From Eubacteriales bacterium (GTDB lineage Bacteria; Bacillota; Clostridia; Lachnospirales; Lachnospiraceae), in assembly GCA_030524545.1 (NCBI GenBank), contig JAUNGM010000005.1, positions 117,588-181,587 of the forward strand: a DNA stretch of 64,000 nucleotides, written 5' to 3'. Both the position numbers and the translations under genes were made by a program. Numbering within the stretch: position 1 is the first letter of the stretch; each line of letters opens with the position of its first letter. Below are positions 12,027 to 58,521 of the stretch, one piece after another. The notes beneath the pieces are model-generated. The model ran no database searches. It was given only the letters and a program-made list of their open reading frames with translations, and was not told the DNA's origin.

Positions 12027-12139
12027 ATAGAGTAGCGAAATAGATATTCTGTATCCGCCGTATGTTCATAACCCAACACGGCTTTTACGGAATATCAGAA
12101 ACCGGCAGAACGGCCGGTCAAGAGAAAGGAGATTTTATC

Positions 12140-17258: not shown

Positions 17259-19460
17259 CTAAATTGCATCTGTCTTTTTCTGTACAAAATGATACTGGCA
17301 GCTTCTCGCATCCCCATTTTGTTCTTTTACCAGAAAACCGCAGTACATAAGCTCCTCCCCTGTATAAGTTTTTTCCGTACCTTCCAGAATGTAGACAGCC
17401 TCCGGGTCCAGGCCGGAAATTTTGATATTGGTGCTGTGCCAGTTTGGAACAGCCAGAACCTGAACATATGTCACCAATGCTTCCGAACCATCTTTCGCAG
17501 CTACTTCCCAGCAATCGTACGGCCGCTGTTCAGACCAGGAGGCAATCCTGTAGTAGTCTCCTGTCTGCATAAGCGGTTGGTATTTATGGCACAATTCCAC
17601 CTGTCCGGCAATCTGATTTCTCTCTTCTTCCGCAATCTTCGTGATATCCAGCTCATATCCAAAGGTTCCCGCCAGAGCCACATGAGCCCTTGTCTCAAAG
17701 GGAGTATTCCTTCCCACAGTGTGATTGGGGCAGTCACTGACATGGGCGCCAATAGAGGACAGCGGATAAAGAAGCGCAGTACCTTCCTGAATACGCAGCC
17801 TTTCTATGGCATCCGTATTATCTGAGCACCAGATCTGAGGGCTGTAGTACAGCATTCCGGGATCAAATCTGGCTCCGCCTCCGGAACAGTTCTCCAACAG
17901 AAGATCCGGAAACTCTGCCACAAGACGTTCCTGCAGTTCATAAACTCCCAGCACATATCTATGGAACAGTTCCTGCTGCTCGTCTGCCTTAAGATATGAA
18001 CTTCCCATATCGCTGAGCTGGCGGTTCATGTCCCATTTCACATAAGAAATCGGTGCGCTGCGCAGAATCTTTGCGACACATTCATAGGCATATTCCCGCA
18101 CATCAGCCCGGGATAAATCCAGAACATACTGTGCCCTGCTCTGGCATGGCTCCCTGTTTGGAATACAAAATGCCCAGTCCGGATGGGTGCGGTAAAGCTC
18201 GGAATCCGGGGAGATCATCTCCGGCTCAAACCAGATCCCAAATTCCAGCCCAATTTCATTGACTTTTTTTACCAGATCCGGCAGGCCGGAGGTAAGTTTT
18301 TCTTCATTCACATACCAATCCCCAAGAGAATTGTCATCACTGTTTCTCTTTCCAAACCAGCCATCATCCATAACCAGCATTTCAATCCCGTTTGCGGCTG
18401 CTTCCCGGGCAATATCAAGAAGCTTTTCCGAGTCAAAATGAAAATAGGTTGCCTCCCAATTGTTGAGAAGTACAGGGCGCTTTCTATATTTATAAGGACT
18501 ACGGATCATATGCTCTCTGTAAAAATCATGAAGGGATCTTGTCATTTTGCCAAGTCCTTCATCCGAATACACCAGAACCGTCTCCGGAGCCTGAAATTCC
18601 TCACCCGGACATAACTTCCAGCAAAACTCTTCTCCGGAAATTCCCATCACCATCCGCACCTGGTCATACTGTGACCGTTCTGCCTGTGCAATGAAATTTC
18701 CTGAATACACAAAGTGCATTCCATAGACTTCCCCTGTATCCTGCGTCGTATTGGGAGTCACCAATGCAAGGAACGGATGCTCCTGGTGGCTGGTTTCCCC
18801 TCTTCCTGACGATACCCTCTGTTTTCCATAAACCAGTCTGTTTCTTTGGATATGGCGTTCTCTCGCCCACGCACCGTGCAAAGTAATGACTTCATAATCC
18901 CGGTTATCCATATCCAGGCAGGCACTGTAGACCTTTTCCAGTCTTCGGATCTTCTGTCCTTTGTTCACGATCCTGATATTTCTTGTAATGATATCTTCTT
19001 TTTCAAAAACGGAATAGGAAAGTATGATCTCCAAATCCAGCACCGGATCTTCACAAAGCAGTTCCAGTGTTTCCACCTGTCCTTCTTCTCCGAAAGAAGC
19101 CGGCAGCCCCTTGAGCCTGGGTTTTCCCTTTATGATCCTATGGCTTCTATAAAAGATCTCGCAGCCCATGTTCCCGTATTCATTGCGGATATCCAGGCAG
19201 CTTTCCCGGTAATCCCCGATACCGCCCGTGGGATATTCCATCGGAAAAACATTCAAAAAAGCGGATTTTTCCCTCTTATGCAAAGATGGCGTATACGGCG
19301 GCTCCTCCATGCGGAGAAGATCCTTACCGCACATCGCTTTTAATCTTTTCCCGTAATATACATGGCCTGCATAGCCCTCTCTGGAAAGTGCAATTACATA
19401 AGTGGTTTCGTACGTATCTAATTTAAATATGCTCTGCTCTGCGTCAAATTGAATTCCCAT
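17259..19460 (-). CDS. GH36 alpha-galactosidase
   Basis: A 733-residue cytoplasmic glycosidase (no signal peptide). It has the N-terminal beta-sandwich, a TIM barrel and a C-terminal beta domain of GH36. The nucleophile Asp477 lies in YVKWDMNR and the acid/base Asp547 in WCSDNTDAIERLRIQEG, matching the spacing known for Geobacillus AgaA. LLNNWEATYF and ENCSGGGARFD are further signatures. It hydrolyses terminal alpha-galactosides; GH36 also contains alpha-N-acetylgalactosaminidases. GGAGG lies 7 nt before the start. It is the last gene of the long leftward glycan locus, 24 bp after the unknown gene. Confidence 0.92.
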   Translation of the reverse strand: MGIQFDAEQSIFKLDTYETTYVIALSREGYAGHVYYGKRLKAMCGKDLLRMEEPPYTPSLHKREKSAFLNVFPMEYPTGGIGDYRESCLDIRNEYGNMGCEIFYRSHRIIKGKPRLKGLPASFGEEGQVETLELLCEDPVLDLEIILSYSVFEKEDIITRNIRIVNKGQKIRRLEKVYSACLDMDNRDYEVITLHGAWARERHIQRNRLVYGKQRVSSGRGETSHQEHPFLALVTPNTTQDTGEVYGMHFVYSGNFIAQAERSQYDQVRMVMGISGEEFCWKLCPGEEFQAPETVLVYSDEGLGKMTRSLHDFYREHMIRSPYKYRKRPVLLNNWEATYFHFDSEKLLDIAREAAANGIEMLVMDDGWFGKRNSDDNSLGDWYVNEEKLTSGLPDLVKKVNEIGLEFGIWFEPEMISPDSELYRTHPDWAFCIPNREPCQSRAQYVLDLSRADVREYAYECVAKILRSAPISYVKWDMNRQLSDMGSSYLKADEQQELFHRYVLGVYELQERLVAEFPDLLLENCSGGGARFDPGMLYYSPQIWCSDNTDAIERLRIQEGTALLYPLSSIGAHVSDCPNHTVGRNTPFETRAHVALAGTFGYELDITKIAEEERNQIAGQVELCHKYQPLMQTGDYYRIASWSEQRPYDCWEVAAKDGSEALVTYVQVLAVPNWHSTNIKISGLDPEAVYILEGTEKTYTGEELMYCGFLVKEQNGDARSCQYHFVQKKTDAI

Positions 19461-19484
19461 CGTGTGTCCTCCAAAGTCTCTTTT

Positions 19485-20177
19485 TCATTCTGTCTCATTC
19501 ATTTTTGCCCAGCATCTGATTTTTTCCAGCTCCGCAGCGATCCGCCCGGGAATCCATTCTTCTAGTTTTTCCCAGGGAATCAGGATTTCCTCCCTGTTCT
19601 TCATCATAACATAATGATTAGCAGGCCGGAATCCATAGTTTTCTTTGATATACCGTTTTGCATTTTCACAGTCTGCTTCATCAAAGACGGGATATCCTTC
19701 CAGGATTCCAGGATTGAGGATTCCATCCTTTCCTGCAGTTTCCATACAGCATTCTGCTTCCTCCCAATGAAGCCCGAACAGATTCGGATGGGGCATCATG
19801 GCATGTTTTCCGGGCTGAGAATAGAGATGAACCGCATCCGTTCCCCTGAAAAGATCAATGCCTGTATTCCAGACGTTCATATACATTCCATGAAAGCTGG
19901 CCTCACAGTCAACCGCCTTTCCGTCCGAATCCAGATATACCCAAATATGCTCCAGATCATAAAGATGCTGGATGTCATAATCAAAAAATACCGCATACTC
20001 TATACAGAGATTTCTCCCTCTCTTGCCCAGTTCTATGCTCTTTGGTGAGGAATGGCTTTTTCCACTCTCTTCAAAAACTGTATAACCGATTCCCACCACA
20101 GGAAACGGCTCTCTTTTATCAAAATAAAGCAGCGGAACATGCTTTACCGCAAACTCTCTCATTTCTTCTGGTTTCAT
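19485..20177 (-). CDS. Conserved protein of unknown function in the glycan locus
   Basis: A 230-residue, acidic, soluble protein without signal peptide or membrane segment. Notable segments are LLYFDKREPFPVVGIGYTVF, IEYAVFFDYDIQHLYDLEH, FHGMYMN and KHAMMPHPNLFGLHW. The clustered His, Asp and Tyr residues suggest a metal or carbohydrate site. The DYDIQHLYDLEHIWVYLD stretch loosely recalls Vps62/DUF946-like beta proteins, but I do not recognise the family firmly. The start was moved to MKPEEMRE, 9 nt after AAGGAG. It lies 4 bp after the GH95 stop and 24 bp before GH36, so it is surely co-transcribed with them and likely acts on the same glycan. Confidence 0.7.
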   Translation of the reverse strand: MKPEEMREFAVKHVPLLYFDKREPFPVVGIGYTVFEESGKSHSSPKSIELGKRGRNLCIEYAVFFDYDIQHLYDLEHIWVYLDSDGKAVDCEASFHGMYMNVWNTGIDLFRGTDAVHLYSQPGKHAMMPHPNLFGLHWEEAECCMETAGKDGILNPGILEGYPVFDEADCENAKRYIKENYGFRPANHYVMMKNREEILIPWEKLEEWIPGRIAAELEKIRCWAKMNETE

Positions 20178-20181
20178 CCTT

Positions 20182-22500
20182 CTATTCTCCTTCAAAGCTT
20201 CGTACCTCTCCTGCTTTCATATGACACTGCAGTTCTTTCCCGTTGTATTGAAGACGGAAGGAATAGTCACTTCCGGCCCTAAGAACCACTCTTGTAATTT
20301 GTCCATCTTCCCACCAGGCATCCACGGTTACATTCCCTCGTGCCAGAAGCCCCCGGAAGCTTCCCTTTTTGCTCCAGCGATCGGGAAGTGCCGGAAGGAT
20401 CCGGATACATCTGTCATGGCTTTGAAGAAGCATCTCTCCTACGCCTGCAGAAAACCCAAGATTCCCGTCAATCTGGAACGGCGGATGATAGCTCCACAGG
20501 TTTTTCATCGTATTATTCTGAATAAAAAAACGCAGGTATTGATAACAGGAATTTCCTTCTCCGAGTCTGGCCCATACCCCCATCCGAAGGGCCATAGACC
20601 AGCTTGGTCCTGCATCTCCGCGGTCCTCCATAGACACTTTTGCTGCCTTCCTAAGTTCCGGTCTTTCAAAGGTAATATACTGTCCGGGATATACGCCCAT
20701 CAGGTGAGAAAAATGGCGGTGATGGAGCTGCACTCCCATAGAATCAAAGCCCCGGTTCTCCCAGGTATCCTCTTCTCTCCATTCTTTGATCTGTCCCCAT
20801 GCACCCACAGTACAGGGAACGATCCGCGGAAACTGCTGACGGATTGTTTTGATCAGTTCCTCGTCTACTGCTCCCATTCGTCCTGCACTTACAAGTTCTT
20901 CCGCTGCCTCCAGCACATCATGGTAAAGCTGCCAGATCATGGTCTGGTCAAAGGTATTGCCGGCCGTAACCGGTCCCTGCTCCGGCGAAAAGCAGGGGGA
21001 ACACAGAAGCTCTCCGGTTTCTGATTCTTCCAAAAGCAGTTGGCTCCACATTCTGGCTGCTTCCTCCATAGCCGGATAAATTTCCTTTTCCAGGGCATCA
21101 AAGTCTCTGGTAAACCGGAAATATTCGTAGGTATTCTGCAGCAAAAAGGCGCCTACCGCAGGTGCCCAGCCCCATTTCCAGTCAGATCCGGGGCCGGTAT
21201 GTCCAAAGATATTATTCTGCGTATGCGCCATCCATCCGGTAGGGGTAAAGGGATTCCCGTCACCGATTCCTGTATACCGGAAAGCGGTTTCCCTTCCCGG
21301 TATGACAAGACATTTGTTTACATACTGAAGCAGAGGCGGCACAGTTTCCGGAAGATTTGTATTCATGGACAGCCAGTAATTCATCTGAAGATTAATGTTC
21401 AAATGGTAGTCACTTTGCCACTCCGGTTCATTGGAATCATTCCAGACACCCTGGAGATTTGCCGGAAGGCCTTCCGCCCTGGAGCTTGCCAAAATGAGAT
21501 AACGTCCATACTGGAACATCTGATATTCTAATAGAGGACTTTCCTTTCCCTGCTGATATGCGGACAGAAGCTCATCCGTCGGAACTATATTCTCCTCCTG
21601 TCCGATTTCCAGAGACACTCTCTGAAACAGAGGAGTATAATCTCTTTGATGTTCTTCGTACAATGCCTCATAGCCTTTTTTTGCTGCCCGTTTTGTCCGC
21701 TCTGTAACCAGCGGAAGCAGCGGTTCACAGCTTCGATACTCCGGATAATCCCATCCATAATCTGTAGCGGCTGCAAGATATAAAGTCATCACAGAGGCAT
21801 TTTTTATATACAGCCCATGTTCTTTCGGGCTTACCTCCCCGTCACTTTCCGCCAGCAGAGACAGGGCAAATCGAAGTCCCTTATCCGCCTCTTCTTCTAC
21901 CTTCCCTTCCAGGGTGATTCCCTCCTTGGTACAGGTCATCTTCGTGACTGTCTGGTGAATGTCAAGAGAAAGCTCCATGTCCTGACGCTCCCCTTCAAAA
22001 CGCATAACTACTGTTTTGGCCGGATAGCTGGCAAAGAAGGTTCTGCGATAGGTCGTGCCGTTTTTCGTAAAATCCACCCACGCAACAGCCGTATCCATGG
22101 AAAGTCCGCGCTCATATTCCAGACAGTTGTCTTTGGAAAGACCAGGAAATTCTATAAAAAGATCTCCAAAGCTCTGATACGCTCCAAGGCCGGTCTCATC
22201 TCCCTGAAGAAGCACCATATGTTCCTGTGCCTCCTTCATTTTTCCTTCGCTCAGAAGCTTCCGGATCAATGCCACGCTTTTTCCATAGTCTCCATTGCGG
22301 TTGCCGTTGGAATTTTCTCCAACGCCTAAGGTGGTTCCCTTCCAAAGGCTTTTTTCATTAAACTGAATCCGTTCTTTTTCGATTCCTCCGAAAATTTTGC
22401 AGCCTAAGTCTCCGTTTCCAATGGGGAGCGCATCCTCCTCCCATCCCAAATGTCCTTCTCCGGACGCTGACTCATACCATAATGTCAATGGACTTTTCAT
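20182..22500 (-). CDS. GH95 alpha-L-fucosidase
   Basis: A 772-residue cytoplasmic enzyme. The N-terminal beta domain starts LWYESASGEGHLGWEEDALP, with IGNGDLGC and the family segment IQFNEKSLW. The (alpha/alpha)6 barrel has the catalytic-site motif HLNINLQMNYW (Asn368, Asn370) and the probable acid Glu507 in FSPEQGP, placed as in Bifidobacterium AfcA. GH95 enzymes remove alpha-1,2-linked fucose from H antigen, mucin and milk glycans by inversion; a few act on L-galactose. AAGGAG lies 7 nt before MKSPLT; the open frame continues far upstream without a ribosome site. No secretion signal, so the substrate must be imported. Confidence 0.92.
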   Translation of the reverse strand: MKSPLTLWYESASGEGHLGWEEDALPIGNGDLGCKIFGGIEKERIQFNEKSLWKGTTLGVGENSNGNRNGDYGKSVALIRKLLSEGKMKEAQEHMVLLQGDETGLGAYQSFGDLFIEFPGLSKDNCLEYERGLSMDTAVAWVDFTKNGTTYRRTFFASYPAKTVVMRFEGERQDMELSLDIHQTVTKMTCTKEGITLEGKVEEEADKGLRFALSLLAESDGEVSPKEHGLYIKNASVMTLYLAAATDYGWDYPEYRSCEPLLPLVTERTKRAAKKGYEALYEEHQRDYTPLFQRVSLEIGQEENIVPTDELLSAYQQGKESPLLEYQMFQYGRYLILASSRAEGLPANLQGVWNDSNEPEWQSDYHLNINLQMNYWLSMNTNLPETVPPLLQYVNKCLVIPGRETAFRYTGIGDGNPFTPTGWMAHTQNNIFGHTGPGSDWKWGWAPAVGAFLLQNTYEYFRFTRDFDALEKEIYPAMEEAARMWSQLLLEESETGELLCSPCFSPEQGPVTAGNTFDQTMIWQLYHDVLEAAEELVSAGRMGAVDEELIKTIRQQFPRIVPCTVGAWGQIKEWREEDTWENRGFDSMGVQLHHRHFSHLMGVYPGQYITFERPELRKAAKVSMEDRGDAGPSWSMALRMGVWARLGEGNSCYQYLRFFIQNNTMKNLWSYHPPFQIDGNLGFSAGVGEMLLQSHDRCIRILPALPDRWSKKGSFRGLLARGNVTVDAWWEDGQITRVVLRAGSDYSFRLQYNGKELQCHMKAGEVRSFEGE

Positions 22501-22504
22501 GCTC

Positions 22505-24996
22505 TTACTCCTTGTTTTTTTCTGCACGAAACAGATGTAATCCGTATTTTTTCCTCTGGAATCCAACCCGGTCTTCACAGGGATCTCCAACGGCTCTTCC
22601 ATAATAATCCGTTTCATAGATCCGATAGCCCGGAACTTCCAGAACTTCTCTGCCTTCCATGCCGGAAAGATCTCTGGCCACAAGTATGAGCCCCTTTTCA
22701 TCCTGTTTCAGATTCATAAGCTCCATACCCTTTGGAAGCTTAAGACCGGAAGAAGATACTGGCAGAGGAACCGTTTCCACGCCTTCCGCATGCAGAGCAC
22801 ACTGTTCCATCAGGGACTCCTCTTCCCTTTCTTCGTATCCCCGTATCACAAACCGGTAGGAAGCATCTCCTCCCTGCCACTGTGGGAAATTTGTACCCCA
22901 CATATTGTTGAACGTGTTAAAAAAGAAAACTGGAAGATTCTCTTCATATTTCTTTCGATACTGGTAGCAGCCATCATCACCAATAGACAATAGCGGTGTA
23001 TCCATGGCCATTACCACGGTACCTACCGATTCTTTTCTGGCTGCTGCAAAATTTTCAAGGGCATAAAAGACATGATTTGCCTTGTCTATGATGTCCTTCG
23101 CAGGGTCTAACAGAACTCCGTTTTTATTGATCCTGTATTGGGGATTTTCCTCCGGGAAGGGGATACAGAAGGAACCTGATTCAATAAAAGGCGTCTCCTG
23201 CTTATCCTTTAAGAGCAGCCGCACAAACAGTTCTTCTCCCTCCGGGGGAAGTGTCACTTCTACCATTACCTGTTTTGCATCTCCGTAAAGTTCCGCGCTC
23301 TTTTCATTCTGATAGGAAAAGCAAATGGTACTTCCTTTTATTTCCAGTCCCAGGAACTCTGGAACATACGTTTCATCTTCGCATTCCGGATAGTTCTCCC
23401 TGCCGTAATCCTTCACGCCCCAGTCAGAAAAACGGTACCCGTAGTTTCTTAAAAACTCTGTCATTTTCTGAATGCCGTGTCTCGTATACTGGTAGGAAAA
23501 TACGCCGATTCCATGGTGTGCTTTCAATAGCACCCTGTCGTATTTTTTGTCTGTGAGACTTACGATCACACCTGTCTTTTCTTCAAAGATCAAGCAGTAA
23601 CGGTGATTTTCCACGCAGGCATTTTCACCTGCCTGTTTGATCGATAACTCTGGCTCTTTTGGGATACTTTCCCCCTTTTCCAATGGCTCTGTGGAAAGAG
23701 GCAAAAGCCCCTGGACATAGCCCCAGGTTTTCTCAAAAAAAGTCGCTGTTTTTATCGGTTTGCCCTGGATCAAAGGCACTTTATCAGAAAACTTCATCGG
23801 TACCCAGCCTGTATATGGCTGTACGGAAGGATTGTAAAGATAGCTTTTCTCTTGTCCCTTTTCTGTCCAAAAACAGTATTTGGAAAGCTGCTCCCCGCAT
23901 AAAACAGCACGCTCTCTCTGCTCCTCCCAGGACTTCTCCATAAACTGATAATTATCCTGTTTTTTGGCTTTTAAAAAATCTTTTTTACGATATACGCGTT
24001 CCGGCCCAAGCCAGGTTTTTACATCTGCTCCCCAGGTATGTTCTCCGAACAAATGCATATTTTCATAATACTTATTCAGCGCTTCCTCCTGCGCCGGAAG
24101 CAGTTTCTTCCCAAGCTGTGCATAGTACTTCTGCATCCGTGTACTTTCATGACGGACACTTCGGATACTTTGACATGCTCCCGGATAGGCACCGACTCCG
24201 TGAATCCAGGTATCTGCCAAATCCGCATCAACTACCGGAACCCTGCTGAGGCCGCATTTTTCCAGCTCTCTTACAAAGTCATCCATCGTTCCGCATACGA
24301 TCTCGGCTTCCGGATACAGTTCCTTTGCTTCTTCCACCAGTTCCCTGATAAATTCTGCAGACTGAGGCCCGCAGTTATCATGGGTGTGGATCAGAGCCAT
24401 CCAAACAGGGAACTCCCATCCCGCAGGAGGTTCCAGGCCGGAACCATAGCCTCCGCGGCAGTACATGGTCAGAAGCCTTCTTCCGCTTTTTGCCTGCCAG
24501 AAAAACAAATCCGGTACTTCCGGCGGTGTGGCAAATGCATTACAGCCGAGATGCAGAAAACGGATTCCGGATGCGCATAAAATCTCGGGAAGCATCATGC
24601 CATGCCCGGGTACATCGGTCATCTTTGCTGCAATGGGATATGGTTTCTCATACTTTTCTGACAGCCATTTTCCATAACGGAGGCTTTCCAGATATTCCTC
24701 TTCTCCGCAGAAATCCGTATGGGAAGTAAAGGGCAGCGCATGCCACGCAATCTGTCCGTTTCGGATATAATGCTCAAGCTCCCCCTTTAATTCCCCGCTG
24801 CACTGCTCTGTCACGACCTTTAGCGGCCAGGCAGGCATTGTCCAGACGTATTTCAGTTTTCCCATATCCTCCGTTGCACGGCAGGTATCCAAAACCTGGG
24901 ACAGCATGGTTGTGGAATATTGCCGGATCACATTGGAAGCCAGATCTGTAAATCCTATGTCAAAATGTGTTTTAAATACAAGAATGATCTTTTTTA

Positions 24997-25000
<4 letters not shown>
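22505..25000 (-). CDS. DUF5054 / GH38-like protein, probable alpha-mannosidase-clan glycosidase
   Basis: An 831-residue cytoplasmic protein. The N-terminal barrel starts VFKTHFDIGFTDLA, whose HxD resembles the zinc site of GH38. MTDVPGHGMMLPE corresponds to the GH38 nucleophile loop, and LIHTHDNCGPQ and LFGEHTWGADV supply further likely metal or acid residues. A beta-rich C-terminal half follows. The family is known as DUF5054; its substrate is not established to my knowledge. Its start overlaps the HAD stop as ATGA, and it stops 4 bp before the GH95 start, so the three are tightly coupled. Confidence 0.75.
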
Positions 25001-28634
<3,634 letters not shown>

Positions 28635-28642
28635 TTATTTAA

Positions 28643-28670
28643 AAAATGAGGTGCAGACACACCTCATTTT
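28643..28670 (-). terminator. Hairpin between the GH110 and GH2 genes
   Basis: aaaatgaggtg (28643-28653) and cacctcatttt (28660-28670) form a perfect 11 bp stem just past the GH110 stop, followed on the minus strand by T/A-rich sequence. It would lower transcription into the GH2-HAD-DUF5054-GH95-GH36 genes, or those genes have their own start. Confidence 0.7.
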
Positions 28671-28681
28671 CTTTTCCGGAC

Positions 28682-30352: not shown

Positions 30353-30359
30353 AAATATA

Positions 30360-31274
30360 TCAGCCTTTTACTCCTCCAAGAGTAAGTCCCTTCGTATAGT
30401 ATTTCTGCAAAAACGGATATACAATCATGATCGGCAGTGTTGTAATGACAATCTGTGCCGCATTGGTTGCTTTACGGCTGGTGGATGCCAGAATTTCCAA
30501 CTGCGCATTGGTCATGGTCGTCAGATCCGGTGTCGTCAGAATACCCTGCAGGTATGTCTGCAGCGGATATTTTGCAGAGTTATTGATGTACATTAAACCA
30601 TCCATCCAGTTGTTCCAATGGGAAACGAAGCAGAACAATACCAGTGTAGCAATGGCCGGTTTTGCCAACGGTACATAGATCTTAAACATGATCGTACCGT
30701 GTCCTGCTCCATCCAGCAAAGCCGATTCTTCCAGTTCCTGGGGCAGCTCCCTGAAGAAATTCAGAAGGATCATCATATTAAATACACTGACTGCTCCCGG
30801 AATAATCAGTGACCAGATACTGTTCATCAGGTGCGTATATTTTACAACCATAAAGGTCGGGATAATACCTGCATCAAAGAACATGGTGATCAGGAAAAAC
30901 CATACATAAAACTTTCTTCCCGGGAATCTCCCTTCCGGTTTGGAAAGAGGATATGCGATCAGCATACACATCAGAATATTGATGGGAACACCGAGCAGTA
31001 CACGAAGTACGGAAATTCCAAATGCGTGGTAGAATTCCTTATTCTGAAGGATAAATTCATAAGAATGAAGGGTAAATCCTACGGGCCAGAAGGTAACCTT
31101 TCCTGCATCTACCGCACTGCTGGAACTAAAAGAAAGACAAAGGATATACCAAAGCGGTACTAAGGCAAGCAGAGTGAGAATTGCCATTAATATGTAATTA
31201 AATACATTAAAAATCCTTCTGGAAGAAGAGGAACCCATTAATATTTCGTCTGTTGACTTTTCTTTTTTCTTCAT
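30360..31274 (-). CDS. CUT1 sugar ABC transporter permease (LplC/YtcP type)
   Basis: A 304-residue inner-membrane permease with about six helices, the first at about 25-45 (YILMAILTLLALVPLWYIL). The cytoplasmic EAA loop for ATPase contact reads LEESALLDGAGHGTIMFK. It pairs with the permease at 31285 and the binding protein at 32332 to import an oligosaccharide; a shared MsmX-like ATPase must be encoded elsewhere. Two consecutive ATGs exist; the second, 6 nt after GGAGG, was chosen. Confidence 0.88.
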   Translation of the reverse strand: MKKKEKSTDEILMGSSSSRRIFNVFNYILMAILTLLALVPLWYILCLSFSSSSAVDAGKVTFWPVGFTLHSYEFILQNKEFYHAFGISVLRVLLGVPINILMCMLIAYPLSKPEGRFPGRKFYVWFFLITMFFDAGIIPTFMVVKYTHLMNSIWSLIIPGAVSVFNMMILLNFFRELPQELEESALLDGAGHGTIMFKIYVPLAKPAIATLVLFCFVSHWNNWMDGLMYINNSAKYPLQTYLQGILTTPDLTTMTNAQLEILASTSRKATNAAQIVITTLPIMIVYPFLQKYYTKGLTLGGVKG

Positions 31275-31284
31275 CATGTACCTC

Positions 31285-32220
31285 CTACAGAATCGAGCGG
31301 TTGCCAAGCTTGGAAGTCATAAAGTTCGCAATAACCATCAGGATAAAGGATACTACAGACTTAAACAAACCAACTGCCGCAGCCAGTGAGTACTGCCCTC
31401 CCTGAATACCCATTCGGAAGGAATACGTATCAATAATATCACCGGTAGAGTAAACAGCGGGACTATACAGCATATATACCTGGTCGAATCCGGCGCTCAT
31501 AATACTTCCGATACCAAGAAGTGTCAGCAGCAATACCATGCCCATCAAGCTTGGAATGGAAATGTAGAGAACCTGTTTAAATCTTCCGGCTCCGTCAATA
31601 GCGGCTGCCTCATAAAGGCCAGGGTCAATGGAAGTTAATGCAGCCAGGAAAATAATGGTGTTATACCCAATCTCTTTCCATAAGTCGGAAACGATCAAGG
31701 CCGGCTGGAACAGGCTCGGTGTACCAAACAGATAGAAGTCGTGTACGCCGAAAAACTCCAGAAGCTGCGTGAACACTCCGGTTCTTGGTGAGAAAATCTG
31801 AAGAAGAATACTTCCCAGAATTACCCAGGAAAGGAAATAAGGAATAAACGTAATACTCTGTACAATACGCTTAAATTTGTTGTGGATCACTTCATTCAGA
31901 AGCAATGCAAAGATTAATGGTACTACGATTTTGGCAATGAGTTTTCCTAATGCGATTACAATCGTATTGCGCACGATCATGGAAAAGTCAGGCATCTGGA
32001 AAATATATTTAAACCAGTCTAAGCCAACCCAGGTACTGCTTTTAAACAGGGAGAAAAAGAAGCCCTTTTTGGAAGGAATATAGTCTTCAAATGCCATAAC
32101 CAGGCCCATCATCGGACCATACTTATAAATGATCGTCAGGATAACCGGAACCAGAAGCATTAAATGAAGAGGAAGAGAACTGGCTCTGCCTTTGAATGCT
32201 TTGCTGCTATTTTTCTTCAT
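31285..32220 (-). CDS. CUT1 sugar ABC transporter permease (LplB/YteP type)
   Basis: A 311-residue inner-membrane permease. After a basic N-terminus the first helix is LMLLVPVILTIIYKYGPMM; the EAA loop reads YEAAAIDGAGRFKQVLYISIP. LplB-type proteins partner LplC-type ones in complex-carbohydrate importers, as the 10 bp gap to the next gene suggests. The start lies 7 nt after AAAGGAG. A strong hairpin separates it from the binding-protein gene. Confidence 0.88.
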   Translation of the reverse strand: MKKNSSKAFKGRASSLPLHLMLLVPVILTIIYKYGPMMGLVMAFEDYIPSKKGFFFSLFKSSTWVGLDWFKYIFQMPDFSMIVRNTIVIALGKLIAKIVVPLIFALLLNEVIHNKFKRIVQSITFIPYFLSWVILGSILLQIFSPRTGVFTQLLEFFGVHDFYLFGTPSLFQPALIVSDLWKEIGYNTIIFLAALTSIDPGLYEAAAIDGAGRFKQVLYISIPSLMGMVLLLTLLGIGSIMSAGFDQVYMLYSPAVYSTGDIIDTYSFRMGIQGGQYSLAAAVGLFKSVVSFILMVIANFMTSKLGNRSIL

Positions 32221-32236
32221 GTTCATTCTCCTTTTC

Positions 32237-32289
32237 AAAAAAACTCCCGGAAAGAGCTCCCATAAAACGAGCTGCCACTTTCCGGGAGT
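32237..32289 (-). terminator. Strong stem-loop between binding-protein and permease genes
   Basis: actcccggaaag (32243-32254) and ctttccgggagt (32278-32289) pair perfectly, and the minus strand then has seven T. It looks like an intrinsic terminator that lets only part of the transcripts continue, giving more binding protein than permease. Confidence 0.85.
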
Positions 32290-32331
32290 AAATCACCTCA
32301 TTGGTCAGTGAAACTATCCAACTGACAATTG

Positions 32332-33951
32332 TTACTGAAGGCTATCTGCTACGGTCTGGCGGAATTCCTCTCCGCCAAGAGAATTCCAGCTATCTACTGT
32401 GTCATCCCATGTGTTTACGTCCTCACCGGAGATAATTCTGATTGCAGATTCGTCTGTCGTCTTTTTCCAGACTGCCAGTTTCGGAAGCATGCTTTCTGTA
32501 GGAAGAGCCTGCCACAGGTTATCTGTAATTGCAGTATCCTTGTTCATTTCATAGATCACATAGTATGCATGTCCTTCTTCCGGATAATAACGGTTCCAGT
32601 CTGCCCAGTTGTCAGCGTTTCCGCTTTCTTCAAATGCAAGAACGCTGTCATAAATGGATTTGTTATCATCAGAAAGTCCTTCCGGATTCTTTGCTGCTAC
32701 CGCTTCGCAGATTGCCTGAGTGGTCTTTCTCTCATCTTCCGGGTCATAAGCCTGTACCATGAAGGCATCGCCGCAAACTGCACGGTTTTCTTCAAAGTAA
32801 TTTACATCAAATAAATCGGTACCTGGTGTGGTAATCTCTGTTACCAGATTCAGCATACGGATGACTGCTTCCGGATGCTCACATTCGGAAGAAACAGCCA
32901 TTGCAGCATTCATAGGCTGGAAGCCTGCAAGCATTGTCTCTTTTCCTTCTGCGTGCGGCATCTTCATTGCATACCATTTTGCGTTTGAATCATTCACATA
33001 TGTCTTATTAAAGCCCCATGCAGGATATCCTCTGGCACCAATGGTAATACCGGCTTTGCTTCCGTTCAGATCTTCAAACATCATTGTTCCGTCATAGGTT
33101 GCAAAATCCTGTGCGATCGCTCCTGCCTTATACAGTTCCTGCAGATCAGCCAGTGCCTGTTTCATCTCCGGCTTTTCACCGTCCCAAACAACATTTCCGT
33201 CCTCATCCTTGGAATAGAAAATCATTCCGTCATACCATCTTGCAGGAGAAATTCCATAACCGGTAAACCATCCTCTTAATGCATCAAGTCCGTCCTTACC
33301 CTGGATAGCAATACCGTAGGTATCATTTTCACCGTTTCCGTCCGGATCCTGCTCTGTAAATGCGATAGCCAGCTTCTTCAGGTCTTCAATAGTTTCCGGC
33401 ATTTCCATGCCAAGATTTTCTACCCAGTCCTGACGGATATAGCAAAGATCCATATTGCAGAGAGATTCTGTAATGTTAATCGGAATAAAACGAAGTCTTC
33501 CGTCAAATGTAGCCGCATTGAGCGCTGCCTGTCCGGCCGGTGTGGAGAATCTTTCTTTTACCAGAGGAGAAGCATACTCTTCAAATGCATCTGTCAAATC
33601 CGCAACCATATCTGCTTTTACCAGAGTGGTCATCTGCTCCGCATTTCCTACCTGGAACAGATCCGGTGTTTCACCGGAAGCAATCGCGGTGTTCATTTTA
33701 TTATTAAACTGGCTGGCATCTGCACTCCACTCTACTTCCAGATTGATTCCGTACTCTTTGTATTTCTGAGTCCAAAGTGCATCATCCCCTGTTGGGATAG
33801 CATCGCCATAAATTCTCTGTGCAACCGTAATCGTTACCGGATCCTCAAATTTACCGAATGGATCAATATCATCCGCATAAACATTCATGCTGGAAGCAAC
33901 CATTCCAAATCCCAGTAAAAGAGCTGTGGTTTTGAATAATCTTCTTTTCAT
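32332..33951 (-). CDS. Extracellular solute-binding protein of the glycan ABC transporter
   Basis: A 539-residue large (LipO/YtcQ-size) binding protein. The N-terminus MKRRLFKTTALLLGFGMVAS continues to VYADDID: a secretion signal with an AxA-like cleavage site but no lipobox Cys, unusual for a Gram-positive binding protein. TFDGRLRFIPINITES and YIRQDWVENLGMEMPETIED are typical of the family that captures oligosaccharides. AAGGAGG lies 5 nt before the ATG. It has its own promoter at 34018-34046 and is followed by a terminator-like stem-loop. The ligand is probably a fucosylated/galactosylated glycan, inferred from neighbours. Confidence 0.88.
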   Translation of the reverse strand: MKRRLFKTTALLLGFGMVASSMNVYADDIDPFGKFEDPVTITVAQRIYGDAIPTGDDALWTQKYKEYGINLEVEWSADASQFNNKMNTAIASGETPDLFQVGNAEQMTTLVKADMVADLTDAFEEYASPLVKERFSTPAGQAALNAATFDGRLRFIPINITESLCNMDLCYIRQDWVENLGMEMPETIEDLKKLAIAFTEQDPDGNGENDTYGIAIQGKDGLDALRGWFTGYGISPARWYDGMIFYSKDEDGNVVWDGEKPEMKQALADLQELYKAGAIAQDFATYDGTMMFEDLNGSKAGITIGARGYPAWGFNKTYVNDSNAKWYAMKMPHAEGKETMLAGFQPMNAAMAVSSECEHPEAVIRMLNLVTEITTPGTDLFDVNYFEENRAVCGDAFMVQAYDPEDERKTTQAICEAVAAKNPEGLSDDNKSIYDSVLAFEESGNADNWADWNRYYPEEGHAYYVIYEMNKDTAITDNLWQALPTESMLPKLAVWKKTTDESAIRIISGEDVNTWDDTVDSWNSLGGEEFRQTVADSLQ

Positions 33952-34017
33952 ATAAACCTCCTTAATGTTCCTTATTTGTTTCCATTCTCGTAGGTGCGCC
34001 CCTTCTTGATAGTTCTC

Positions 34018-34046
34018 ATTTTACAGGATTCAGTTTGTGTATTCAA
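34018..34046 (-). promoter_or_regulatory. Promoter of the binding-protein gene
   Basis: On the minus strand TTGAAT (34046-34041), 17 bases and TAAAAT (34023-34018) lie about 67 bp before the ATG at 33951. It probably drives the transporter-glycosidase operon and may be the target of the YesN regulator. Confidence 0.55.
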
Positions 34047-34088
34047 TTTTCTTGTTTTTACTTTTTTTATCATTTCTTTACCGCTATT

Positions 34089-36026
34089 TTATAATTGAAC
34101 CAGGACTTCTTCACCTTTCTTGCAGTAAAACTCCTGTTTCTTCTTTCCTGTTACCGTAATCTGATAACCGCTGCACTGCTGCCCGTCTTTTCTTTGGATT
34201 TCAATGGAAAGCTTCTCACCGCCTACGGTTAGATTCTCCACTTTCATTCCATTCCAGTCCTCCGGGATCGAGGGATGACAGGTAAAAGTACCAAATCCCT
34301 CCGGTCGCAGCCCAAGAAGTCCCTCCAAATATATCCGGCAGTACAGGGCACTTTCTGCAGAGAGATGCCTCTGATCTCCTTCCGGCCATGCCTCCACCGG
34401 ATAAGGTACATGCTCTCCCAAAAGACGTTTCCCTGAGTATTCTTTTAAGTATCCGATTCCCCGGTCCGCCTCATCTGCGGCAAACACACCTCTAAGGGCA
34501 TATACGGTAGAGCGGTCCCAAAAGGTATGATCTCCCTCCATGGTCAAAAGCCCATTTTCCGTCCACAGTTTTTTGGAAAACAATGCCTTGATCGTTCCAT
34601 CTTTTCTCCGGAAAATGCCCACAGTCAAAGGAATGCAGATCCAGGAGCGAAGAGCCTGATTCTCCTTACAGTAGCGGTATGTCTCATGCTCATCGATGAC
34701 AAAGCCAAAGTATTCTTCAACCGACTTCTCCAGTGACATCCTCCAGCTTTCATACTCTTTCGCTTTTTCCTCTTCGTTCAGTTCTCTGGCGAGACAGGAA
34801 GCCGATTTCAGTGCATCGTACAAAAGGCAGGAAGTAGAAAGGTTGGCAATTCCATGAGGAAACCGTCCTTCCAGCTCGTCAGAATCCGAAGCAATGACTC
34901 CTTCGGGAAGCAGCTTTCTCCTGCAATATTCCAGACACCAGGAAACTGCCGGAAAATATTCCCCGGCAAGCTTTTTGTCACCCATTGTCAAAAGAAATCT
35001 GGCTGTTCCATAAGCGTACATTGCCGCATCTCCTCTGTCCTTTTTGCCTTCCCAGATGCTTTCCCCCTCTGCGATAATGGAGGAAGGAATGGCCTCAAAA
35101 GCAGGACCCATAAACCGTTTAAAAAGCCCCAGGCAGTTGATCACGGACTCTGTTGGATTTTTCAGGCCTGTGTATGCAAAAAAAGGATTTGCATATTCTG
35201 CCTGGTCGTTTGTCCAGACAGCAGCGTAATAATGAAGTCCTCCCGGACTGTGAAGAAGTCCTGCTCTTGTCCAGAAAATACTTTCCATGCTTCTGATTTT
35301 TGCAAAGAAAAACATCTGATCTAAAACAGGGTCCGGCGTTTCAAGTGCAATGGTTTCCCTCATTGAGGCAAGAAATTCTTTCCTCTCAAGGAGCAGTTCC
35401 TCCCCGTTTGGCCACACGATTTCATCCAGAATGGGTGCAGCGGCAAATATCCCATACCACACAAATGTTTCTCCCGGCTTTAAGCATACTTCTTCTTTTG
35501 GTGACAGAGTGCTGTCGTATACATAGATTCCCCTTGCTCCCCGGTTTGTCCCTTTGCAGCCTTTCAGAAGCGGAACAACCGAAATATCCCGGTTGGAAAT
35601 ATTCACTGCCTGCAGCCGGATGCACGCGGCTTTTTGTTCCATAGACGGAAAAAAGGAACGCTCCGTTTTAAGAAGCGTTCCGTCACTCTCCCAAATATGC
35701 AGACAGCCGTCAAACGCAATTTTCGTTCCTTTTAACGGGAGCACTTCGCCATTTACTTTCCATACGGGATTTGCCATCTCTTTCTCCTGCATGGTCTTCA
35801 TACTGGCATGGGTATCATTCGGAAGCATCCGAAGCCAGGGCCATACCAGAATCTGCTCCACTTGAACCTTTCTTTCTCTGTCTACCTTATATTTCACATA
35901 TTGCGATACAAATTTTCCGCTCATTTCCAGATGATCGTCATGAGGAAGCTCCTTTTCTGTCTCCAGATTCCAGGAAATCCCGCCCTCTTCCAATTTCCAT
36001 CTGTCCTTCTTCTTTTCTGCCAACAT
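34089..36026 (-). CDS. Unclassified (alpha/alpha)6-barrel glycosidase-like protein
   Basis: A 645-residue cytoplasmic protein. The N-terminal third is beta-rich; the middle is made of helical hairpins like the six-hairpin glycosidases (GH15/63/65/78/95), with AGLLHSPGGLHYYAAVWTND, GIANLSTSCLLYDALKSAS, EGDHTFWDRSTVYALRG and EAWPEGDQRHLSAESALY; the end is a small beta domain. WTNDQAEY and PEGDQRHLS hold plausible acidic catalytic residues. I cannot assign a GH family. The start MLAEKKKDRWK follows GGAGG by 6 nt. It lies between the kinase/regulator pair and the transporter, so it belongs to the locus. Confidence 0.65.
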   Translation of the reverse strand: MLAEKKKDRWKLEEGGISWNLETEKELPHDDHLEMSGKFVSQYVKYKVDRERKVQVEQILVWPWLRMLPNDTHASMKTMQEKEMANPVWKVNGEVLPLKGTKIAFDGCLHIWESDGTLLKTERSFFPSMEQKAACIRLQAVNISNRDISVVPLLKGCKGTNRGARGIYVYDSTLSPKEEVCLKPGETFVWYGIFAAAPILDEIVWPNGEELLLERKEFLASMRETIALETPDPVLDQMFFFAKIRSMESIFWTRAGLLHSPGGLHYYAAVWTNDQAEYANPFFAYTGLKNPTESVINCLGLFKRFMGPAFEAIPSSIIAEGESIWEGKKDRGDAAMYAYGTARFLLTMGDKKLAGEYFPAVSWCLEYCRRKLLPEGVIASDSDELEGRFPHGIANLSTSCLLYDALKSASCLARELNEEEKAKEYESWRMSLEKSVEEYFGFVIDEHETYRYCKENQALRSWICIPLTVGIFRRKDGTIKALFSKKLWTENGLLTMEGDHTFWDRSTVYALRGVFAADEADRGIGYLKEYSGKRLLGEHVPYPVEAWPEGDQRHLSAESALYCRIYLEGLLGLRPEGFGTFTCHPSIPEDWNGMKVENLTVGGEKLSIEIQRKDGQQCSGYQITVTGKKKQEFYCKKGEEVLVQL

Positions 36027-36105
36027 CACATACCTCCAATCAGATTTTCTTTCTTGAATATATGTGATTTTGCCGCAGAAACGCAATCTGCAATTTTTTA
36101 CATTT

Positions 36106-37743
36106 TTACCCTTTCTTTACTTCTTTCCGGTAATTTATGGGAGCCTCGCCTGTATACTTTTTAAAGGCCCGGTTAAAGGACTGTACCGATTCATACCCAA
36201 CACACTGGGCAATATCCTGAATCTTCTGCGTTCCCTCCAAAATCAGTTCCGATGCCTTCTGCATCCGGACGCGAAGGACATATTCATACAGTTTCTCCCC
36301 TGTTTCTTTTTTAAACAGCCTTGAGAGATACGAAGCATTCAGATGGATCTTCTCTGCCAATACCACAAGGCTTAGATCCTCTGCCATATGTTCTTTGATA
36401 TAATCCCTTGTATACGTGACATACCCGGACAGATTTGTCCGCTCTGTCTCAAAGTACAGACGGAAAATGGTCTTCGCGGTTTTACGAAGAAATGCCACGC
36501 CCTCCGCCCAGTTTTCATGAACGTCCGCTCTCATCAGCTTATATAGTTCCAGATGAAATGCCATTTTTTCGTTCAGGCGCCAGAGATTGATATAGCGCAG
36601 CAAAAGAACCGCAATCTTATAGTAGATTTCCTGGGCAAGTGTATAGTTCATACTATCCACCTCGTCCATATGCTCCACCATCTGTTCAAACAGTTCAAAG
36701 AAAAGCTGCTCCTGTCCCATTTCCAGATATGTTTCCAGTTCATCAATGTGAACCATTTTATTCCAGCTTTTCTGAAGATCCGGATTTTCCCACACGGTAC
36801 TTCCGCCTGCTTCCCAAACGCCGCAGGGAATGATATTCTCCGTCAAATCCTGTCTGCGGTAGCCCAGCACATTTCGAATCCTTTTATATAAACGGGGATT
36901 CTCCAGATAATCTCCGGAATTTCCTCCATAAGCGAAAGAAACCGTATACTTTGTATTGGTCCGCACCATATTCTGCACAGACTCCAAAACATCCTGAAGC
37001 ATACGGGCGTCCTCCGACTTTTTCTGAAGCAGCCAGGTAGACAGGGTTTCCTGCTCATCGGAAAGATAGCAGAACATCCGGTAATCCTGCTGAAATTCCG
37101 CAGCCATAACGGTTTTTAATACAAATCCCAGATATTCCCCATCTTTTTGCGTATTCTGCTCTCCATCCATGGCTACTCCCACCAGATAGGCCGGTTCTTC
37201 AATGCAAAGATCAATGTCATATTTCTGAAAGCCCGCCTGGATCTGCTCCTTCTTCCCTTTTCCATAGAGAAACTGCCCCAGATATTTATTCTGGAAAAGG
37301 GGAAGTGCCTCCTGGCTCTCTTTTAGAACCTTCTGCATTAATTCCTTTTCCTGATAGCTTTTCTCCATCTCTTCAAACATTTCTTCTATGGTGGCGATAA
37401 TTTTTTCCGCCGGCTCCAGCTTGGTGAGAAAACGGGTATTGCTCCCCTGGGCAGCCGTAGAATATACATAGTCAAAATCCATGAAGCCCGTCAGGAATAA
37501 AAAGCGGCTTTTCGGCCATACCTTCTTGATTTCCTGATACATCTCCACTCCGTTCATTCCGGGCATCTGAATGTCGGATACCACCAGATCCACTTTATAT
37601 TCCCGGAAATAGTCCATTGCTTTTTCTGCGGAATCCACTGCATAAACATCAATTTCGAACTTTTTGCTGAGACTTTCCCGAAACATTCTGCTAAAATACT
37701 GTAAAGCATCCCATTCATCATCCACTAATAATATTCTGTACAT
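36106..37743 (-). CDS. YesN-type response regulator with AraC DNA-binding domain
   Basis: A 545-residue regulator. The receiver has Asp8-Asp9, phosphoacceptor Asp57 in VVSDIQMPG and Lys108 in FLTKLEP, where Leu replaces the usual Pro after Lys. The C-terminal AraC domain contains LSLVVLAEKIHLNASYLSRL and IQDIAQCVGYESVQSF. MYRILLVDDE was chosen as start, 9 nt after GGAGG; an in-frame GTG lies 9 nt earlier. It overlaps the kinase gene end by 26 bp. It should control the glycan locus downstream. Confidence 0.9.
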   Translation of the reverse strand: MYRILLVDDEWDALQYFSRMFRESLSKKFEIDVYAVDSAEKAMDYFREYKVDLVVSDIQMPGMNGVEMYQEIKKVWPKSRFLFLTGFMDFDYVYSTAAQGSNTRFLTKLEPAEKIIATIEEMFEEMEKSYQEKELMQKVLKESQEALPLFQNKYLGQFLYGKGKKEQIQAGFQKYDIDLCIEEPAYLVGVAMDGEQNTQKDGEYLGFVLKTVMAAEFQQDYRMFCYLSDEQETLSTWLLQKKSEDARMLQDVLESVQNMVRTNTKYTVSFAYGGNSGDYLENPRLYKRIRNVLGYRRQDLTENIIPCGVWEAGGSTVWENPDLQKSWNKMVHIDELETYLEMGQEQLFFELFEQMVEHMDEVDSMNYTLAQEIYYKIAVLLLRYINLWRLNEKMAFHLELYKLMRADVHENWAEGVAFLRKTAKTIFRLYFETERTNLSGYVTYTRDYIKEHMAEDLSLVVLAEKIHLNASYLSRLFKKETGEKLYEYVLRVRMQKASELILEGTQKIQDIAQCVGYESVQSFNRAFKKYTGEAPINYRKEVKKG

Positions 37744-39463
37744 CCAATTCACCCTCCGGTATTTCCTTCTTCAGTTTCAATGTCACCCTAAGGCCGCCAA
37801 GCTGGCTTATACCCAATTCCACGCCGCCTCCTCCATTGTAGATCAACATTAATCTCTGATGAATATTTGCCATACCATGGATCTCATCATCCACCTTTCC
37901 AAGCTTCCCGGCAATAACAGAAAGTTCCTCATCCGTGATTTCTCCGCTGTTTTCAATGATGATCCGGATTGCATCTTCCTCATAAACAAACCCCATATGG
38001 ATCGTGACAAAATCTCTGGATTTTCCCACTACATACTTAAATACATTCTCAAAAACCGGCTGGACGATCAGCCTCGGAACCAGAGTTTCTTTCCAGTTCT
38101 CGTCAAGCTCATCAAGCTGCAGATTTAATCTGTTCCGGAAGCGGACATGCTGGATTCTGGCGTAACTCCATGCGTGTTCCAGTTCTTCCTTCAATGGAAT
38201 ATACTCCCGCCCGTTTCTGGTAAGGAACATAAAATACTGCCCGAGCTCCCTGCTGAATTCTGCTGCAAACTCGTAATCCTCGGCATTGATCCGGTTGCTG
38301 AGTACGATAAAGCTGTTATATAAAAAATGGGGCGCAATCTGGGACTGAAGCTGTTTCAATTCTGACTTTTTCAAAAGGATCTCCTGCCGGTAATTCTTTT
38401 CGATCAACTGTTTCAGCCGGACTGTCATGCTGTTAAAGCTTTCATATATCTCCTGAAATTCATCATCCCTTTGAACGGAAATAACCGTATCCAGATCTCC
38501 GTTTCTGACCTTTTCCAGCCCCTCCAGCAGCACCTTCATAGGGCGGTGGAGAATCATGTACAGCCAGCGGCTGAAGAAACAGGCGCCCGCCACGATCAAA
38601 CCAAGCAGAAGACAATAAAATGCTCTGTAGAAGTTCATGGAACTGTAAATCTCTCTGTCCGCATAATAAGTAACACTTACATAATCCGAACGTTCAATTT
38701 CCGAAACATAATACAGATATCCTTTTTTGTCCGCCGGCTGCTCCTGCGCTGTCTTCCATCCCTCATCTTTTAGAAATTCCAGAACCGTGTCATCGGTATT
38801 TCCGACACTTTCTCCTTCCCGCACATTATACAGGAAACATTGTTCCGGGCTCTGTCCCTTATTTCCCAAAAGTCCTTTTTCCAGTGCATATCCGGTCAGC
38901 TTTGCGTATATATAATATTCTCCCAGAAGATATTCCGACATAATGATCATATCACCCTGATAAGAAAATAAGTTTCCGGATGTCTGCGTTTCCTGAAAAT
39001 ACTTCAAAAGCGCCTCATCCTCTTCCTGAATATAATGGAACGTCCCTGTTGTAATGACAAGATTGGTGGTGGGATTGATCAAACACACATCCTCGATCAT
39101 GGAATTTCCTTTCCAGACCATGGACAGGGATTCCTGGATCGCCTGGATTTCTTTTGTCTGGCGGATGTCCACTTTATCTTTTAATCCCTGCTGAGAAATG
39201 ATCAGATCAATGACATCCTCTGTTCCTCCAAACTGATAAAGCATCATTCGGATCTGCTGGCAGAAATTATAAATATTATTGACGTTTCCATGATTTTTTT
39301 CTTTGATCACCTGCGAAATCTCATGATTAATGATAGAAAAGCCTTCCCTGTAAATTCCTGTACAGAGAATCCCGGTCAACAGACACAGCGATAAAAAATA
39401 GATAATGATACGCTTGTAAATACTTCTTTTTCCAAACACATTTCTTAGTTTCAGAACTCCCAT
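37718..39463 (-). CDS. YesM-type sensor histidine kinase
   Basis: A 581-residue membrane kinase with helices at about 18-37 and 280-300, an extracellular sensor region, HAMP, the phosphoacceptor motif QIAPHFLYNSF (His379) and an ATPase domain. Two oddities: Ala replaces Asn in the usual QINPHF, and the G1 box is ENSGE instead of DNGxG, while GMANIHQRLMLIYNG is kept. The ribosome site is GGGAGAGGG. First gene of the leftward glycan locus; it likely senses the external glycan or a breakdown product. Confidence 0.88.
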   Translation of the reverse strand: MGVLKLRNVFGKRSIYKRIIIYFLSLCLLTGILCTGIYREGFSIINHEISQVIKEKNHGNVNNIYNFCQQIRMMLYQFGGTEDVIDLIISQQGLKDKVDIRQTKEIQAIQESLSMVWKGNSMIEDVCLINPTTNLVITTGTFHYIQEEDEALLKYFQETQTSGNLFSYQGDMIIMSEYLLGEYYIYAKLTGYALEKGLLGNKGQSPEQCFLYNVREGESVGNTDDTVLEFLKDEGWKTAQEQPADKKGYLYYVSEIERSDYVSVTYYADREIYSSMNFYRAFYCLLLGLIVAGACFFSRWLYMILHRPMKVLLEGLEKVRNGDLDTVISVQRDDEFQEIYESFNSMTVRLKQLIEKNYRQEILLKKSELKQLQSQIAPHFLYNSFIVLSNRINAEDYEFAAEFSRELGQYFMFLTRNGREYIPLKEELEHAWSYARIQHVRFRNRLNLQLDELDENWKETLVPRLIVQPVFENVFKYVVGKSRDFVTIHMGFVYEEDAIRIIIENSGEITDEELSVIAGKLGKVDDEIHGMANIHQRLMLIYNGGGGVELGISQLGGLRVTLKLKKEIPEGELDVQNIISG

Positions 39464-43929: not shown

Positions 43930-43941
43930 AAGGCTCCTCCT

Positions 43942-46449: not shown

Positions 46450-46478
46450 ATTGCTCTCCTTCTCTATCAAGCTAAATG

Positions 46479-48254: not shown

Positions 48255-48297
48255 TTATCATACCTCATCAAATGATTCCTTTTAATTCTGCAACTGA

Positions 48298-50100: not shown

Positions 50101-50126
50101 ATCAGTATCCTTTCCATAAAAAGTAT

Positions 50127-50954: not shown

Positions 50955-50980
50955 CAATCACTCTCCTCCTTTTGTTTCCA

Positions 50981-51856: not shown

Positions 51857-51888
51857 AAAAAACACCTCACGATCTATAATTATCAAAT

Positions 51889-51925: not shown

Positions 51926-51934
51926 AAATATCAG

Positions 51935-58473: not shown

Positions 58474-58521
58474 AAATCTGAAGAATTATTGATTTTTGCA
58501 GATACAGAGAGGATGATACTT

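Follow-up and report, generated by a model that had tools for sequence, protein, structure and literature searches.

Loci for the use of ABO-type glycans are already known in gut Clostridia, where they are organised around extracellular GH98 enzymes. In Roseburia inulinivorans, a binding protein induced by mucin goes with a putative GH36, a GH29 and, for A and B oligomers, an extracellular GH98, and the fucosidases of this species' human milk oligosaccharide locus, RiFuc29 and RiFuc95, lack signal peptides (PMC7335108). In Ruminococcus gnavus, a mucin-induced GH98 operon that includes a GH95 serves the use of blood group A (PMC8730463), and strain ATCC 35913 is reported to possess a B-degrading α-1,3-galactosidase and an H-degrading fucosidase (PMC10112845). 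Here we describe an operon from a Lachnospiraceae genome (Eubacteriales bacterium, contig JAUNGM010000005.1, positions 117,588 to 181,587; this stretch of 64,000 nucleotides is henceforth the window) in which, as judged from families and hydropathy, an ABC importer adjoins exo-enzymes without signal-peptide-like N-termini. The difference from the GH98-based loci is a GH110 protein, a predicted α-1,3-galactosidase that apparently resides inside the cell. On balance, we consider it probable that the operon imports a short oligosaccharide carrying terminal α-1,3-galactose and L-fucose and dismantles it inside the cell, with a B-type host fragment as the best fit.

Like the R. inulinivorans system, whose fucose genes are co-induced, the locus combines a clostridial ABC importer with a putative α-galactosidase and a fucosidase, but Roseburia relies on an extracellular, ligand-releasing GH98, and no GH110 was noticed in the account of its locus (PMC7335108), whereas the window has GH110, GH95, a LacZ-type GH2 and a DUF5054 protein. 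The R. gnavus operon also contains a GH95, and B-degrading activity is reported in that related gut Clostridium, but the operon itself is A-specific and built on a secreted GH98 (PMC8730463). An earlier note on this DNA, made from its letters, had set intracellular trimming apart from the surface-enzyme systems of Bacteroides and bifidobacteria; to call it unlike known systems would be too strong, since R. inulinivorans already has an importer for ABO glycans and fucosidases without signal peptides (PMC7335108). In our searches of open-licence PMC papers, we recognised no report of an intracellular GH110 import locus.

Among characterised GH110 enzymes, PpaGal of Pedobacter (PDB 9i4f) has published B activity (PMC12002104, which mentions an AmGH110A structure without giving a PDB code), both Akkermansia GH110s are active on B types I and II as well as on linear substrates (PMC11790493), and a Bifidobacterium bifidum GH110 counts among the characterised members (PMC7232152). 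By contrast, PdGH110B of the marine Pseudoalteromonas distincta, for which a λ-carrageenan setting is proposed, cuts Gal-α-1,3-Gal but not the B trisaccharide, a failure ascribed to Lys-195 (on a finger) and Lys-207, which close the site to the 2-fucosyl group (PMC7939477).

A GH110 protein encoded behind an ABC importer

The open reading frames (ORFs) named in the earlier note were all found where it had placed them, in a leftward run on the minus strand from 39463 to 17259, and their coordinates and Pfam and PDB matches support the families it had named. In order, the run encodes a histidine kinase (HK), a response regulator (RR), ORF665, a solute-binding protein (SBP), two permeases, GH110, GH2, a HAD protein, a DUF5054 protein, GH95, ORF236 and GH36, and neighbouring genes overlap or are spaced by 4-137 nt.

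The protein encoded at 28682-30352 matches the Pfam model PF23763 at E 1e-9, above its cut-off, and reaches 25.2 bits with PF23764, below the cut-off of 28. Against solved structures it matches 7jw4 at E 5.6e-80, and 8pvs and 9i4f also match; nine PDB sequences titled GH110 or α-galactosidase match at E <1e-20. PF23763 has no other match in the whole genome (4.34 Mb). These matches fit the GH110 domain plan of a β-helix with two GLAA-B barrels. A pectate-lyase-like β-helix, which the earlier note had named as an outcome that would refute it, was considered for this protein and rejected, because the GH110 models and structures score better. All ten catalytic and −1 galactose-site residues that we checked are identical to those of PdGH110B, namely the catalytic Asp triad (D321, D344 and D345, in PdGH110B numbering) and the other −1 residues N85, R265, N348, R453, E480, W486 and E488; the +1-site residue R451 is conserved as well. 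Judged by family models and site residues, this protein is a true GH110, as the earlier note had supposed.

The importer genes lie immediately upstream. The SBP (32332-33951; SBP_bac_1, PF01547 at E 1.3e-15) is followed by permease A (31285-32238) and permease B (30360-31307), both matching PF00528 (BPD_transp_1); we take the importer to be of the CUT1 type. In a scripted hydropathy check, used in place of a signal-peptide program, the N-termini of the operon's enzymes, GH110 included, were not hydrophobic and that of the binding protein was, which agrees with the earlier proposal of an importer serving probably intracellular enzymes. The signal-peptide-like N-terminus of the SBP has no lipobox cysteine; its relative in locus L017 (G and L numbers are our labels for genomes and loci) does have one.

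A Bacillota branch of GH110

A profile scan of genome contigs with alignment A1 yielded at least 579 GH110 relatives, of which 80 were retained; a contig scan with the single window sequence found none. A quick tree of 105 rows was followed by a careful tree of 95 rows, for which three long-branch rows and eight near-duplicates were removed and one row (G746) was added; the GH110 of L028 (L028:9935-11599) is split into two ORFs, only one piece of which is in the trees, and the L018 stretch ends within its GH110. The quick tree placed the window GH110 in a five-row Bacillota clade (support 99), and the careful tree placed it in a six-row, all-Bacillota clade (100/99) with L017, L018, L028, L023 and G746, within which the window, L017 and L018 form one group (100/94), and G746 and L023 another (98/80). 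A separate 49-row clade (100/98) holds 8pvs, 9i4f and 8yk3, the rows from Bacteroides and nine large GH110 proteins from the family to which the window belongs, and PdGH110B lies outside it. We take 8pvs to be AmGH110A of Akkermansia, and 8yk3 is presumably the B. bifidum enzyme with B activity. Approximately unbiased (AU) tests on 46 rows (four rows left out, the others thinned by script, under a simpler model), whose p-values are meant for groups fixed in advance whereas ours were chosen after the tree was seen, did not reject the six-row clade as sister of the 49-row clade (p 0.188) and rejected the window and G746 GH110s as sisters (p 0.011).

With a crude hydropathy score, a hydrophobic N-terminus was found in 35 of the 36 rows scored within the 49-row clade (the remaining one, too, resembles a signal peptide), in 20 of the 37 rows scored elsewhere and in none of the six rows of the window's clade; the tallies of 36 and 37 exclude these six focal rows along with five PDB and eleven A1 rows. 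Thus, the window GH110 shares family and catalytic residues with the characterised enzymes of Akkermansia, Pedobacter and B. bifidum, but these references appear to represent a mostly secreted branch, whereas the window protein belongs to a separate, apparently cytoplasmic one. This apparently cytoplasmic branch would be what is new at this locus. One genome of the same family, G140, encodes four GH110 proteins (L005, L010, L013 and L014) in frames of 987-2385 aa, all within the 49-row reference clade.

Gene neighbourhoods of related GH110 genes

GH110 occurs in two of the 64 genomes of the genus (34 of which are ≥90% complete and ≤5% contaminated): the window's own and G746. The G746 backbone around the fucose genes has ~76-87% nucleotide identity to the window, and between fucU and fucI it carries a GH110 of its own (33% identity), an SBP, permeases (32-33%), a two-component system, a GH123 and a GH29. 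The window operon is instead placed beyond fucI and its AraC neighbour, on the other side from the G746 locus. Since the AU test rejects the two GH110s as sisters and the loci at the shared fucose genes differ, the window and G746 look to have acquired their GH110 loci separately beside the same fucose genes; the alternative is one old, heavily rearranged locus.

Similar combinations recur elsewhere. In G093, from a second genus, consecutive genes encode a LacZ-type GH2 (40% identity), a DUF5054 protein (29%), a GH110 (27%) and a GH95 protein. The L017 locus of Drancourtella massiliensis has the order RR-HK-SBP-permeases-GH110-GH109-GH123, and its importer, which directly precedes GH110, resembles that of the window: permease A shares 51% identity with the L017 permease two genes before GH110, permease B 46% with the gene just before it, and the SBPs share 27%. 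The L017 GH109 was assigned by PF21252 (E 2.1e-63) and PDB 2ixa (E 8.5e-92), and its GH123 by PF13320 (E 1.1e-110). In G003, a single run of genes encodes FucI (86% identical to that of the window), a class II aldolase and a GH3, followed by a DUF5054 protein.

Other genes of the operon and its surroundings

Downstream of GH110, the LacZ-type GH2 β-galactosidase gene (25530-28610) matches PF02836 (E 2.1e-93), PF02929 and PF02837; its product falls short of every one of the 11 NCBIfam cut-offs that apply to it. The gap between the two genes (28611-28681) contains a hairpin followed by a T-run (−20.8 kcal/mol, z −4.6), and none of 200 shuffles folded equally well. This possible attenuator, which a consensus scan did not pick among terminator-like sites, perhaps separates expression of the importer and GH110 from that of the remaining enzymes.

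The GH95 fucosidase, probably α-1,2-specific, matches PF22124 at E 1.2e-134. As listed, its ORF (20182-22701) would overlap the DUF5054 gene by 197 nt; an ATG at 22500, preceded by the ribosome-site-like AAGGAG, is the likelier start, and we re-set the gene to 20182-22500. Its top PDB match is 2eab, which we take to be AfcA, and like 2eab it has Glu and Asp at the two positions where 2ead and 2eae have Ala, presumably the catalytic carboxylate pair of GH95. The last gene of the run encodes a GH36 α-galactosidase (17259-19460; PF02065 at E 4.9e-151; PDB 4fnq, AgaB, 767 bits).

The HAD-family phosphatase-like protein (24997-25548; PF00702) and the 230-aa ORF236 (19485-20177; no Pfam match) probably act together, because their homologues form a fused 397-aa protein in L124 (L124:1159-2352), are adjacent in L125 and lie ~3 kb apart around importer genes in L126. 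ORF236 homologues are present in six of the 299 genomes of the family, the window's own included, and in L127 and L123 they have GH27-type genes nearby (confirmed by Pfam for L127).

The DUF5054 protein (22505-25000; PF16477 at E 1.5e-17) matched neither the GH38N model PF01074 at E 1 nor, better than E 0.095, PF07748. However, a profile of eight DUF5054 proteins matches L120:3558-6026 at E 4.9e-38, itself a PF01074 protein at E 1.8e-12, and the H-x-D, D129 and H321 positions of the window protein, which we take to be the metal and nucleophile sites of GH38, align with it. These alignments support a GH38-like protein, as the earlier note had it, though one that we do not class as GH38. The same profile found no credible match among solved structures (best E 0.035), and viral contigs yielded no relatives of DUF5054 or ORF665. 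L120 holds this GH38N protein and a DUF5054 protein in one locus, as two branches of the same family. The DUF5054 genes of G039, G046 and G126 (loci L118-L120) have as neighbours a regulator resembling GntR and a kinase resembling ROK proteins (both recognised by eye), as well as a 582-586 aa gene, whose product in L118 (G039) has a weak phosphomannose-isomerase match (PF20511, E 0.02).

ORF665, named after its full frame, encodes a 646-aa candidate (α/α)6 glycosidase (34089-36029) without a Pfam match at 1e-3; its weak matches are PF17389 (E 0.08) and PDB 5mqr (E 9e-4), and an AlphaFold2 model from two sequences was unusable (pLDDT 35). It is rare, being found in one of 299 family genomes (the window's own), in two of 398 genomes of the phylum (the own genome and G425) and in L069, where the relative (42% over 658 aa) lies beside a GH97 and two GH110 genes. 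L069:2654-10191 is a Bacteroidales locus from sheep cecum, and its two GH110s group with PdGH110B.

Upstream of ORF665, the sensor kinase (37718-39463; PF06580 and PF00672) overlaps by 35 nt with the response regulator (36106-37752; PF00072 and the AraC-type HTH_18, PF12833); we take the pair to be of the YesM and YesN types. Beyond the other end of the operon lie an AraC-type regulator on the plus strand (16223-17071; PF12833, PF02311; 90% in G746), the L-fucose isomerase FucI on the minus strand (14231-16024; PF07882, PF07881, PF02952; 95% in G746) and, on the plus strand, a FucU/RbsD family protein that is probably a fucose mutarotase (12062-12583; PF05025 at E 1.6e-44; 95% in G746). No fuculose kinase or aldolase was assigned among the window genes; the genome has a FucK-like gene (42%) 4.8 kb beyond the left end of the window and, on a different contig, a FucA-like one (47%), both confusable with rhamnose genes. 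The genome also carries a GH112 and one GH20 match, which suits the use of host glycans. A second ABC importer locus in the window (41377-53266) encodes a 647-aa protein that lacks a Pfam match along with three proteins of the GH2 type.

Discussion

From the families, residues and gene order observed, we infer activities, cellular location and substrate as follows. A B-type host-glycan fragment, freed outside by another enzyme or organism, would be captured by the binding protein and imported through the permeases with a presumably shared ATPase. Inside the cell, trimming would proceed from the outer end: GH110 would take off the α-1,3-Gal, GH95 the α-1,2-Fuc and the LacZ-type GH2 the β-Gal, activities predicted from family and conserved residues. 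On the B antigen, the galactosidase usually acts before the fucosidase. This scheme gives no step to GH36, DUF5054, the HAD protein, ORF236 or ORF665. The freed fucose would pass to the neighbouring FucI and FucU; of the fucose link drawn in the earlier note, the adjacency of FucI, the AraC regulator and FucU to the operon held, and the transfer itself is a prediction.

We favour a fucosylated α-1,3-galactoside because of context, namely the GH110-importer-GH123-GH29 locus of G746, the GH2-DUF5054-GH110-GH95 module of G093 and the importer-GH110-GH109-GH123 order of L017. A B-type substrate, predicted from these gene contents, is our best guess, and a mixture of B-type and linear α-Gal ligands is possible. 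Several observations weigh against a B-type substrate. The window GH110 is excluded from the 49-row reference clade, and its top PDB match is PdGH110B (272 bits, versus 242 bits for 8pvs). The G093 module's GH110, an A1 row, belongs to that 49-row clade and not to the window's; it sits there on a long branch without a hydrophobic N-terminus and breaks the otherwise clean split. GH110 is found in eight of 299 family genomes, the own included, and ten of the 13 copies are contained in ORFs 987-3237 aa long. In L023 and L028, members of the window's clade, no importer or recognisable glycan enzyme was seen beside GH110, as judged from N-termini. A search of the own genome for GH98 gave no match, as did its controls, so absence is not established. 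GH36 is nearest to AgaB, AgaA and AgaSK, close to dietary α-galactoside enzymes. The earlier note's claims of a GH110, an importer with probably intracellular enzymes and a link to fucose genes hold up, then, whereas B-antigen cleavage by this GH110 stays a prediction, its exclusion from the reference clade standing beside a sister placement that was not rejected.

The most serious competitor, which we regard as unlikely, is that the enzyme acts on linear Gal-α-1,3-Gal like PdGH110B. The window protein lies outside the reference clade, has this linear-specific enzyme as its top PDB match and conserves its Glu-480 and the Arg-208 of its basic +1 site, the latter a further point against a B-type ligand. 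Yet the Lys-195 finger has no aligned counterpart and Lys-207 is replaced by Val, in a region of loose local alignment. With finger and Lys-207 missing but Arg-208 retained, and with the alignment loose, the site neither contradicts fucose nor proves that it fits. In the window, in G746 and in G093, fucosidases or fuc genes also accompany the GH110s of this clade or module. PdGH110B further invites the thought of λ-carrageenan or another sulfated algal galactan, the setting proposed for that enzyme; the same top match is what speaks for it. We considered a carrageenan locus, rejected it and hold an algal substrate to be extremely improbable: Lys-195 and Lys-207 are not conserved, fucosidase and LacZ would be unexplained, and no sulfatase or carrageenase appeared in Pfam scans of the operon and the other window proteins (apart from those encoded to the right of 61137 and by small plus-strand ORFs at 58378-59848).

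A fungal mannofucogalactan or similar polymer would assign GH36 to an α-1,6-Gal backbone, GH95 to α-Fuc at C-2 and the GH38-like DUF5054 protein to α-Man side units. Such a polymer has been described (PMC6432100), the GH36 is near α-1,6-acting enzymes (the AgaSK linkage is from PMC10112845), and the DUF5054 protein is GH38-like, its counterparts in G039, G046 and G126 being encoded near a kinase of ROK-like appearance and, in G039, near a weak phosphomannose-isomerase match. GH110 and the LacZ-type GH2 would be left without a task, however, no endo-enzyme is among the operon's Pfam matches, and the relative L017 pairs GH110 with GH109 and GH123, so that we rate this quite improbable. To a similar degree we doubt a plant α-galactoside locus, for the raffinose family or galactomannan, with GH110 and GH95 as bystanders. 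It draws on the GH36 relatives, AgaSK acting on melibiose, raffinose and stachyose (PMC10112845), and on the arabinofuranosidase genes near GH110 in L018 (PF06964) and, by its N-terminus, in L017. Against it, no mannanase or sucrose enzyme is among the operon's Pfam matches, and GH110, GH95, DUF5054 and GH2 come together again in G093; a simple raffinose operon was considered and rejected.

Beyond the preferred B-type substrate, we tentatively propose, while rather doubting that every part will hold, a separate cytoplasmic Bacillota branch of GH110 working behind ABC importers on fucosylated ABO-type oligosaccharides, in B-type (GH110) and A-type (GH109) versions. Such loci would have been assembled repeatedly from differing importers and fucosidases, and in one genus next to opposite ends of a shared fucI gene. 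DUF5054 and ORF665 would represent two enzyme families with undescribed activities in these pathways. If the B-type reading is true, gut Clostridia that import the intact epitope and leave no free galactose or fucose to others could be under selection by the ABO and secretor status of their host, and this operon would be a ready test of such selection. The new GH110 branch would then be useful to those seeking enzymes for B-to-O conversion, and the DUF5054 and ORF665 families would gain a pathway in which they can be tested.

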